Position numbers and translations under genes: made by a program. 52,199 bases of DNA from Parvibaculaceae bacterium (GTDB lineage: Bacteria; Pseudomonadota; Alphaproteobacteria; Parvibaculales; Parvibaculaceae). The stretch is from the NCBI GenBank assembly GCA_029209985.1, contig JARGNZ010000023.1, positions 1-52,199 of the forward strand, read 5' to 3'. Shown here piece by piece: positions 1,709 through 11,292 of this stretch. Under the pieces are notes generated by a model. The model did not search any database, was not told the origin of the DNA, and saw only the letters and a list, made by a program, of their open reading frames with translations. The first letter of the stretch is position 1; each line of letters begins with the position of its first letter.

Positions 1709-1996
1709 TTATTCGATGATCCCGAGAATGTCGGATTCTTTCATGATCAGCAGATCTTCGCCGTCAACTTTGACTTCGGTGCCAGACCATTTGCCGAACA
1801 AAACTTTATCGCCTTGTTTCACGTCAAGCGCGGTCACTTTACCGGCTTCGTCTTTAAGGCCTGAACCAGCAGCCAATACTTCGCCTGTAGAAGGCTTCTC
1901 TTGAGCTGTTTCTGGGATGATGATCCCACCAGCGGTTTTCGTGTCTTCTTCAACACGCCGAACCAGCACGCGGTCATGCAACGGACGGAATTTCAT
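1709..1996 (-). CDS. groES: Co-chaperonin GroES
   Basis: The 95-residue heptameric lid of the GroEL chamber. The whole protein matches the family: it starts [14 protein letters not shown], has the mobile-loop region [20 protein letters not shown], and ends ESDILGIIE. The start at 1996 is set by a GGGAGA ribosome-binding site and the usual length. It is the first gene of the groESL operon and lies about 60 bp downstream of a CIRCE operator. Confidence 0.99.
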
Positions 1997-8623: not shown

Positions 8624-9979
8624 ATGGTGCATACCCCTCCAGCCCCGTCAGGCACACCCGCAACCGACCTGCCAAATGACCTAGACGCATTTTGGATGCC
8701 GTTTACGCCGAACCGGGCCTTCAAAAAAGACCCCCGTATTGTCGCCCGCGCCAAGGATATGTACTACTACAAGACCGATGGCACGCAGGTGCTGGATGGA
8801 ACGGCGGGCCTATGGTGCTCCAATGCGGGCCACTGCCGCGCTCCCATCGTAGAGGCAATCCAACAACAGGCAGGCGAATTAGACTTTGCGCCGACGTTTC
8901 AATTTGGTCATCCCAAAGTATTTGAACTTGCCAATCGATTGACGCAAATGGCACCCAAGGGGCTTGATTATGCGTTCTTTTGCAACTCTGGTTCTGAGGC
9001 CGCTGATAGCGCAATGAAGATGGCTTTAGCCTATCATCGCCAACGGGGGGAGGGGAGTCGGACACGGTTCATTGGCCGAGAGCGTGGATATCACGGGGTT
9101 GGCTTCGGGGGTATTTCTGTTGGGGGCATTGCACCCAATCGGAAGTTTTATGGATCGCTTTTGCCCGGCGTCGATCACTTGCCCCATACCTATAACCGTC
9201 AAGAACAAGCATTTAGCAGTGGCGAACCAGAGTGGGGCGCTCATTTAGCTGATGAGCTGCAACGGCTTGTGGACTTGCATGACGCCAGCAATATCGCCGG
9301 GGTGATTGTAGAGCCGATGGCCGGTTCCACTGGTGTCTTAGCGCCCCCCAAAGGGTATCTAAAACGCTTACGTGAAATTTGCGACCGCCACGGCATATTG
9401 CTGATTTTTGATGAAGTGATTACGGCCTTTGGTCGCTTAGGTTTTGCCACGGCGGCCGAACGGTTCGATGTGACGCCCGATATTATGACGTTTGCCAAAG
9501 GGGTCACCAGCGGCACCGTGCCAATGGGCGGCACCTTAGTGAGCAGTGAAATTTATGAGATTTTTCAAAATGGCCCAGATCACGTCATTGATCTGTTTCA
9601 CGGATACACTTATTCCGGCCATCCCTTGGCCACTGCTGCCGCATTAGCCACCCTCGACCTCTACCGAGATGAAGGGCTTTACCAAAACGCACAAGCCATG
9701 GAAGCCGAAATAGCTGCAGCTGCCATGAAGCTCAAAGGCCATCCCCTTATTGAGGACATTCGTACCATCGGAGTTGTTGCCGCATTTGATTTGAAACCAA
9801 GGGCCGATAGCCCCGGCACCTTTGGATATGACTTTATGGCCCATGCCTTTCATAAGGAGAATGTCATGGTGCGGGTGACTGCCGACACAATCGCCTTGTC
9901 CCCCCCTCTTATGTTGGAGCCGATGCATATTGAAGAGTTGTTCGAGAAATTCACAAGAACGCTCGATAGCTTTTTGTAA
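8624..9979 (+). CDS. Class III aminotransferase, omega-amino acid:pyruvate type
   Basis: A 451-residue PLP aminotransferase of the beta-alanine:pyruvate/omega-transaminase group. Motifs: LDAFWMPFTPNRAFKKDPR at the N-terminus, FCNSGSEAADSAMKMA (PLP phosphate cup), GRERGYHGVGFGG, LLIFDEVITAFGR (Asp pairing with the PLP nitrogen), and MTFAKGVTSG with the Schiff-base Lys. It moves an amino group from beta-alanine or another omega-amine to pyruvate. ATG 8624 has AAGGA 7 nt upstream. The divergent PuuR-like gene probably controls it. A structured, C-rich region and an intrinsic terminator follow about 100-230 bp downstream. Confidence 0.94.
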   Translation: MVHTPPAPSGTPATDLPNDLDAFWMPFTPNRAFKKDPRIVARAKDMYYYKTDGTQVLDGTAGLWCSNAGHCRAPIVEAIQQQAGELDFAPTFQFGHPKVFELANRLTQMAPKGLDYAFFCNSGSEAADSAMKMALAYHRQRGEGSRTRFIGRERGYHGVGFGGISVGGIAPNRKFYGSLLPGVDHLPHTYNRQEQAFSSGEPEWGAHLADELQRLVDLHDASNIAGVIVEPMAGSTGVLAPPKGYLKRLREICDRHGILLIFDEVITAFGRLGFATAAERFDVTPDIMTFAKGVTSGTVPMGGTLVSSEIYEIFQNGPDHVIDLFHGYTYSGHPLATAAALATLDLYRDEGLYQNAQAMEAEIAAAAMKLKGHPLIEDIRTIGVVAAFDLKPRADSPGTFGYDFMAHAFHKENVMVRVTADTIALSPPLMLEPMHIEELFEKFTRTLDSFL

Positions 9980-10080
9980 AAAGAGCCGCAAACGTCCAAA
10001 AGTGAAATTAGTTCGAGTTTGTAAGCGATTGAAATTATTGGGTAAAACTAGAAAAGTTAAAAAAATGCTGACAGAGTGTC

Positions 10081-10207
10081 GCAACCCATTGGAAATGGTA
10101 AAAACAGCCCCATATCTGTTCTGTCCCTGATGATCCAGGCTGGATGTTTTCCCCCTCTGATCCCAGCCTGTAGTAAACCCTCGGCTCCCCCCAGCCGAGG
10201 GTTTTTT
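10081..10207 (+). ncRNA. Candidate sRNA (or structured 3' UTR) with C-rich hairpin loops
   Basis: The 302-bp space between the aminotransferase and DUF4424 genes has no convincing gene but four consecutive hairpins: CCATT-gga-AATGG (10086-10098); AACAG/CTGTT with loop CCCCATAT (10103-10120); CAGGCTGG/CCAGCCTG with a loop containing CCCCCTCT (10136-10170); and the terminator with loop CCCCCC (10178-10207). Three of the four loops are C-rich, like anti-Shine-Dalgarno loops of known trans-acting sRNAs. A weak promoter TTGGGT-N17-AAAAAT begins near 10038. It could also simply be the aminotransferase 3' UTR. Confidence 0.35.
10178..10207 (+). terminator. Intrinsic terminator
   Basis: Perfect 9-bp GC-rich stem CCCTCGGCT/AGCCGAGGG with a C6 loop, then six T on the plus strand. 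It ends the aminotransferase transcript or the candidate sRNA. Confidence 0.92.
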
Positions 10208-10281
10208 CTTTACGCTTCTCGGGCATACTCCCCTAAACCTTCCAACATTGAGAACGGCGCATTCGTGCGGCAGTAAAATAA

Positions 10282-11292
10282 ATGAGGCTTTGGATGTGGG
10301 GACGAAGACAAGAACGCCGTTTGGGGCGCCTGTGGGTGCTTGGGACACTGCTGGCCAGCATCTGCCTCAGCGCGCACGCCACCCATGCCGGTGATGCTTT
10401 TACAGGGATTGCCGCTGGTGGGTTGGAAGTGAGTAATACGCGCGAGATTGGTGTTCAACGTCAGATATTGATCATTAATCCTGGCATCATTACTTCCGAA
10501 TATGTTTTGCGGAATAGATCGAAACAACCGGTTGATGCGGTGATGTCATTTCAAGCACCGCCCTATTTTGTTGGTCAAGCATTTGACCCAAAGGGGGCAA
10601 CGGACTTAGGACCAGTGCCGCGTTTGAATTATTTCGATTTTTCTGCGCAGGTGGGGCATGAAATTGTGAGGCTCTCCCACATAGGCCGGGCTTATATCGA
10701 TGACCAAATTGTAGGGGACAGACGTGAAGTGACACGTATGCTCGTTGGTGCAGGGATCCCTTTGTTGGTAGAACGAAGTGCGCTTGAGATAGCCATCGGT
10801 CACTTGCCTCCTTTGAAGCGCAGAGCCCTTACCTCTGCAGGCCTCCTAAGAGTTGAAGGTGACACCACAGTACCGACTTGGGATTTAGCCACGCGCTTTT
10901 ATTGGGAACAAAAGTTCAAGCCGGGTGAAACACTCAAGGCCAAGTTTGAATATCACCCGATCAATGCAAACGGCATTTTTAGTCTAGATGATCTGGATAA
11001 AGAGCAATATTGCGTGTCTGATTGGACGCGCAATCGGGTGACGGAACTGGCTGCAGAAAAAACACAAAGTGGCCGTCCTTTATTTTATCAAGCGCTGACC
11101 TACAAACTGAAGAACCCGACACAAGGGCAGGGACCAATCGCAGATTTTAACCTCAAGATAGTGCCCGGGCCGGACACGCAAGTCGTGTCGAATTGCCAAT
11201 ATCCCTTGCGCTATATTGATCGAAACACTCTGGGGTTCGCGAGCAAAGACTTTACGCCATCAGGGGATATCGATCTGCTGTTCATTTACTAA
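10282..11292 (+). CDS. DUF4424 family exported protein
   Basis: A 336-residue protein with an Arg-rich N-terminus, a hydrophobic stretch (about residues 16-33) and a probable signal-peptidase site near AHA-THA, so likely periplasmic. The mature part fits DUF4424: GDAFTGIAAGGLEVSNTREI near the start, a VLRNRSKQPVDAVMSFQAP segment, FYWEQKFKPGETLKAKFEYHP, and an EQYCVSDW cysteine. The biochemical role of the family is not known to me. No strong ribosome-binding site precedes the ATG. It stands alone between the upstream terminator and the shared terminator at 11299, so it is probably a single-gene unit. Confidence 0.85.
   Translation: MRLWMWGRRQERRLGRLWVLGTLLASICLSAHATHAGDAFTGIAAGGLEVSNTREIGVQRQILIINPGIITSEYVLRNRSKQPVDAVMSFQAPPYFVGQAFDPKGATDLGPVPRLNYFDFSAQVGHEIVRLSHIGRAYIDDQIVGDRREVTRMLVGAGIPLLVERSALEIAIGHLPPLKRRALTSAGLLRVEGDTTVPTWDLATRFYWEQKFKPGETLKAKFEYHPINANGIFSLDDLDKEQYCVSDWTRNRVTELAAEKTQSGRPLFYQALTYKLKNPTQGQGPIADFNLKIVPGPDTQVVSNCQYPLRYIDRNTLGFASKDFTPSGDIDLLFIY

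Follow-up and report, generated by a model that had tools for sequence, protein, structure and literature searches.

A stand-alone small RNA (sRNA) gene with an RpoH-type promoter, whose product would act on Shine-Dalgarno (SD) sequences under heat or oxidative stress, is considered the best explanation of positions 10088-10207 in the DNA analysed here, and a probability of about 0.62 is given to it. The window (the whole stretch of 52,199 nucleotides) makes up contig C39 in a 3.09-Mb Parvibaculaceae genome (G000), and the element in question lies between an aminotransferase gene and a gene for a DUF4424 protein (Table 1). In the proposed mechanism, the promoter would drive synthesis of an RNA of about 85 nt, ending at its own intrinsic terminator, and the unpaired C/U-rich segments of this RNA (the 5' UGUCCC, the loop UUUUCCCCCUCU and the loop CCCCCC) would pair with G-rich SD regions of several mRNAs, in this way blocking ribosome binding in heat or oxidative stress. 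The model has two analogies, the anti-SD motifs of ar14/NfeR1 and the deployment of RpoH-driven CcsR RNAs. A trans-acting sRNA with C-rich loops had been suggested for this region in an earlier note, and this is still the best reading, with the correction that the first of its hairpins is most likely promoter DNA.

Folding of the segment 10081-10207 gave an energy of -42.5 kcal/mol in comparison to -27.4 kcal/mol for shuffled sequences (z -4.8; none of 200 shuffles was as good), and the reverse strand folds well too (z -3.4). Four hairpins in a row had been described here. The two 3' ones are stable, with loops containing CCCCCTCT / CCCCCUCU (hairpin 1) and CCCCCC (the terminator, rightly called strong), whereas the two 5' stems are weak, merge in the minimum-energy fold and are located within the promoter. 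The 5' end of the RNA is mostly unpaired in the folds, with UGUCCC in the window and UUGUUCCC in other genomes, and GTTCCC or its equivalent stands at the matching position in homologues of genera g2, g4 and g5. Loss of stems or C-rich loops in relatives had been named as the result that would speak against the sRNA, and C-rich loops are present in 17/17 folded homologues; in all of them the hairpin loops are almost free of G, and C makes up 0.49-0.77 of hairpin-loop bases versus 0.10-0.36 at other unpaired positions. The C-run of the terminator loop is retained in genera g1 to g4 and in part of g5, and is lost in many g5 copies. The C-rich elements are thus two hairpin loops and a single-stranded 5' end, not three loops.

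Table 1. Features of the window that are discussed in the text
Feature	Positions	Strand	Basis and remarks
groES	1715-1993	-	CIRCE element and heat-shock-type promoter CTTGAC-CCTATTTC
Omega-aminotransferase gene (AptA-type), upstream	8624..9979	+	NF052567, 677.8 bits (cut-off 500); syntenic partner of the sRNA
Conserved block upstream of the -35 box	10067..10087	+	TGACAGAGTGTCGCAACC; conserved TGACAGAGTGTCGCAA; 1/21 changes, G000 vs G001
Predicted RpoH (sigma-32)-type promoter	10088..10116	+	ATTGGA (10088-10093), N16, CCATATC (10110-10116)
Predicted sRNA, about 85 nt	10122..10207	+	5' end estimated from the -10 position (10120-10127 possible)
5' leader, single-stranded, with UGUCCCUGAUG	10122..10135	+	Unpaired in fold; counterpart of the (U)UGUUCCC element in relatives
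Hairpin 1, stem CAGGCUGG/CCAGCCUG, loop holding UUUUCCCCCUCU	10136..10170	+	Folding; C-rich loop in homologues
Intrinsic terminator	10175..10207	+	Terminator prediction; 12-bp stem, loop CCCCCC, T6 tail
DUF4424 protein gene, downstream	10282..11292	+	PF14415, 131.6 bits

The sister species G001, the only genome of the same genus in the searches, served as the reference for change counts. Between the two genomes 19 of 62 nt differ in the spacer 10005-10066, 4 of 29 in the promoter, and 2 of 86 in the sRNA (10134 and 10147); one of these falls among the 35 nt of hairpin 1, in the loop and outside the C-run, and the 33 nt of the terminator are unchanged. Conservation is nearly at the sRNA level in the 24 nt past the terminator (10208-10231, 1 change), and the sequences diverge rapidly beyond. 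That conserved tail, together with the DUF4424 gene as next gene on the same strand in g1 and g4, would suit a cis-acting leader or attenuator of DUF4424. The DUF4424 gene is present in 6/61 genomes and adjoins the sRNA only in those two genera; in the loci read from g2, g3 and g5 a different gene follows, on the opposite strand. It is this variability of the downstream gene, in identity and in strand, that argues against a leader RNA, and such a role is judged highly improbable. A small protein-coding gene can be practically dismissed: frames started by ATG, GTG or TTG cross the region, but the small ORFs that overlap 10081-10207 match no Pfam family, and the ATG frame inside the RNA, which in the window extends through the terminator, is closed in G001 by a stop codon after only five codons.

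Three C-rich loops had been counted in the earlier note. Those of hairpin 1 and of the terminator (CCCCCC) stood, whereas the first, CCCCATAT (10108-10115), coincides with a -10 box whose distance from xTTG is found again in other genera. In G001 CCCCATAT is replaced by CCTTATAT, two changes that turn CCCC into CCTT and that would be surprising in a pairing seed. The hairpin is most likely promoter DNA and not RNA. The combination TTG-N18-CCATATC occurs once in the window (9/100 shuffles contain one). An exact xTTGnn-N16-CCATAT is found at the sRNA loci of G000, G002, G006, G004 and G008 (genera g1, g2 and g4) and before the HSP20 gene of the own genome, where the ClpB gene has the identical -10 box CCATATC with a spacer one base longer. 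The spacing of the sRNA promoter fits published RpoH consensuses, as given in the available parts of the sources: cTTGaa-N16-CgATaT for R. etli (PMC4167512), and CTTGAA-N15-16-CCTATAT for RpoH1 and CTTGCC-N15-16-CCTATCT for RpoH2 (quoted from Barnett 2012 in PMC4843759). With 374 bits (TIGR02392), one rpoH gene of the own genome scores above the cut-off; another sigma gene stays below it, at 139.6 bits. Upstream of the -35 box, the conserved block 10067-10087 is possibly an activator site; TGTC-N4-TGTC-like repeats were seen by eye, at other distances, also in g2, g3 and g4. In the window some 8 kb separate groES and the sRNA, and in several relatives the pair is about 6-16 kb apart.

A position weight matrix (PWM) was trained on 13 heat-shock promoters, none of them from an sRNA locus, namely 11 groES-CIRCE promoters (recovered from 37 strings searched) and the two that precede HSP20 and ClpB in the own genome. 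With this matrix 21/24 sRNA upstream regions lie at a background fraction of at most 0.0114 (up to 6000 random windows), the value of the window's own sRNA promoter, with the reservation that 11/13 training promoters (all groES) carry CTTGAC, a -35 box shared with sigma-70. G001 reaches only 0.069 (6.9%), and G020 and G027 fail at 0.26. The -35 box in the window reads ATTG, not CTTG. A generic promoter pattern run over 40 genomes was commoner forward than reversed; in the own genome it has 12 sites, mostly inside genes, thus the pattern alone proves nothing. The consensuses of RpoH and sigma-70 overlap in Alphaproteobacteria (PMC3616915, in the part available), and the NfeR1 promoter signature CTTAGAC-N17-CTATAT (available text of PMC10746234) is similar in spacing. 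Both points would suit an independent anti-SD sRNA transcribed from a sigma-70 promoter, hence not a heat-shock RNA. Against this stand the absence of TTGAC from all 24 sRNA promoters, the TTGACA-type promoters of those ar14-like RNAs of the same family in which a promoter is visible (by eye), and the match of the -10 box CCATATC to the own HSP20 and ClpB genes. The sigma-70 alternative is taken seriously and regarded as unlikely; dependence of the sRNA on RpoH is the more probable reading.

Of the 40 family genomes, 24 have a recognised copy of the sRNA, with each of the five genera represented, and none was recognised in the other 16. A sequence-only search of 61 genomes matched the sister species only; the other copies had to be located by synteny and with a covariance model. 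When the flanks were read, the aminotransferase emerged as the constant partner. Its gene was detected at E<=1e-150 in 36/40 family genomes; the 420 nt (or the remainder) past its stop codon were read in 34/36, leaving out G061 and G005, where the gene meets a contig end. The sRNA was found by eye directly 3' of the aminotransferase in 17/34 loci: G000 and G001 (g1), G002 and G006 (g2), G003, G007, G010, G012, G014, G016 (cut by a contig end) and G018 (g3), G004 and G008 (g4), and G013, G020, G030 and G062 (g5). It is not directly 3' of the gene in the remaining 17/34 loci, all of genus g5. The copies in G004 and G008 were reached via a sub-threshold ar14 search and a DUF4424 search, and the one in G027 is an addition from the ar14 search.

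The covariance model (17 RNAs, promoter excluded) was run on 40 genomes of the order and gave at least 39 bits in six genomes outside the training set: G017 (50.9), G011 (46.6), G023 (45.7), G021 (45.0), G015 (42.8) and G005 (39.1). The cut copy of G016 scored 29.2 bits. The automatic structure of this model, R1, consists of the terminator only (7 pairs), therefore its power comes mostly from sequence. Each of the six untrained copies has the 5' GTTCCCTC element (UUCCC motif) with a pyrimidine-rich -10-like box directly upstream, which is CCTATCTC in both G011 and G005, CCCTATCTC in G017, ACCTATCTG in G023, CCCATCTG in G021 and CCCATTTC in G015; the -35 is xTTG in 4/6 and CTGG in 2/6. Not counted were weaker R1 matches in G036, G032, G312 and a second one in G017, which resemble terminators or C-rich RNAs of a different sort. 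Under stricter filters a class-wide search gave matches in 6/385 genomes at E<=1e-6, five of them in the family; the locus of the sixth, G312, was judged a different C-rich element. Covariation among six g3 sequences amounted to one compensated pair, and 94/500 shuffles were as good.

The positions of the copies also bear on the suggestion that no separate RNA exists and that the aminotransferase mRNA merely ends here, at a terminator with some additional stems. Between the stop codon and the element no other terminator was seen in g1, where the element may also end the aminotransferase mRNA. In G002 and G006, on the other hand, the aminotransferase has its own terminator hairpin after the stop codon, before the promoter and the sRNA; the copies of G011 and G005 are on the opposite strand and precede the aminotransferase, and those of G017 and G023 are about 4 kb and about 15 kb away, of which the former speaks against an mRNA end as well. 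Furthermore, a terminator alone would not keep promoter boxes and a 5' motif. An mRNA end is held improbable. That the element is a genuine sRNA with transcription of its own is very probable.

Pairing was evaluated in the 41 predicted genes of the window, where the 25 nt before the start surpass coding controls for the 5' segment (p 0.0008) and for loop 1 (p 0.001), with a weaker preference for the terminator loop (p 0.017); a 16S anti-SD oligo has a like bias (p 0.0025). Such a bias demonstrates anti-SD character and does not identify particular targets. As is characteristic of an anti-SD sRNA, the RNA contains unpaired C-rich stretches that could base-pair with ribosome-binding sites. Target prediction, proposed earlier as a check, turned out negative for the main loop: extended loop-1 complements show no genome-wide enrichment (105 sites vs 91 for the reversed pattern, at most 2 mismatches), and no convincing start region was noticed among the inspected sites, two exact ones included. 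In a more far-reaching version, regarded as speculative and quite doubtful, the sRNA would be a family-specific, RpoH-induced mobile copy of the anti-SD tail of the ribosome, competing with 16S rRNA for strong SD sequences and shifting translation globally to weak-SD or leaderless mRNAs in stress, independently of the ar14-type RNA of the same cells.

No Rfam family matches the window at the gathering score. Rfam includes an AbcR/ar15 model, which is absent from the 11 hits obtained with an E limit of 10, so the AbcR-type likeness put forward earlier was not borne out; the nearest model is ar14 (RF02344), which aligns over its full length with 27.2 bits (E 0.0023) at a gathering score of 58.8. 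AbcR1/2 of rhizobia are similar in their anti-SD-like loop segments (available part of PMC3927594) and differ in genomic context. The ar14/NfeR1 RNAs are defined by three hairpins, each with an ultraconserved CCUCCUCCC (PMC10746234, as far as accessible). With ar14/NfeR1 (SmelA075 in the accessible text of PMC3927594, which we infer from the shared description to be the ar14 RNA) the sRNA has in common its intergenic location in Alphaproteobacteria, C-rich anti-SD hairpin loops, divergent stems and a terminator hairpin with a C-rich loop. Membership was rejected on account of the score, the lack of CCUCCUCCC, two hairpins instead of three and a different promoter (ATTGGA-N16-CCATATC); the length is about 85 nt versus 123 nt, and CCTCCTCCC is absent from the whole window. 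A separate ar14-like RNA, with CCTCCTCCC in its loops and TTGACA in its promoter, was noticed at G000:C12:45883-45980 (L047:1501-1598), about 2.3 kb before rpoH (C12:48300-49118), and similar copies exist in several g1, g3 and g5 genomes.

CcsR RNAs have C-rich loops. CcsR1-4 of Rhodobacter sphaeroides (CcsR or 'cuckoo' RNAs) are described, in the available parts of PMC10253847 and PMC8307010, as stress RNAs with an RpoHI/RpoHII-type promoter, four in tandem, which arise by processing of a transcript that also includes a DUF1127 gene. The RNA of the window is a single stand-alone one and its upstream gene encodes the AptA-type aminotransferase, not DUF1127, for which reasons it was not placed among them; by analogy, these RpoH-driven RNAs appear to be the closest in logic. 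Other C-rich RNAs were met on the way: L031 (G057:C1:245431-245802), from another family, is an array of several hairpins with CTCTCCTCCTCCCTGG loops that looks like a tandem CcsR type, and L039, L045, L055 and L060 (genus g5) are a further set of RNAs with C-rich loops, which apparently lie 3' of a gene for a short protein whose C-terminal codons are alike. Elsewhere in the own genome, at G000:C41:46000-46416, one 13-mer matches three times at an exact spacing of 202 bases, which suggests a 202-bp tandem repeat.

Literature searches on Parvibaculum small RNAs and on RpoH-dependent anti-SD sRNAs yielded no description of this sRNA. If the preferred reading is true, one family of Alphaproteobacteria would possess an anti-SD sRNA family distinct from ar14 and apparently under heat-shock control. 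C-rich loops would then be reused by RNAs with different promoters and neighbours, which makes it a testable idea that such loops may have arisen repeatedly as general brakes of translation.
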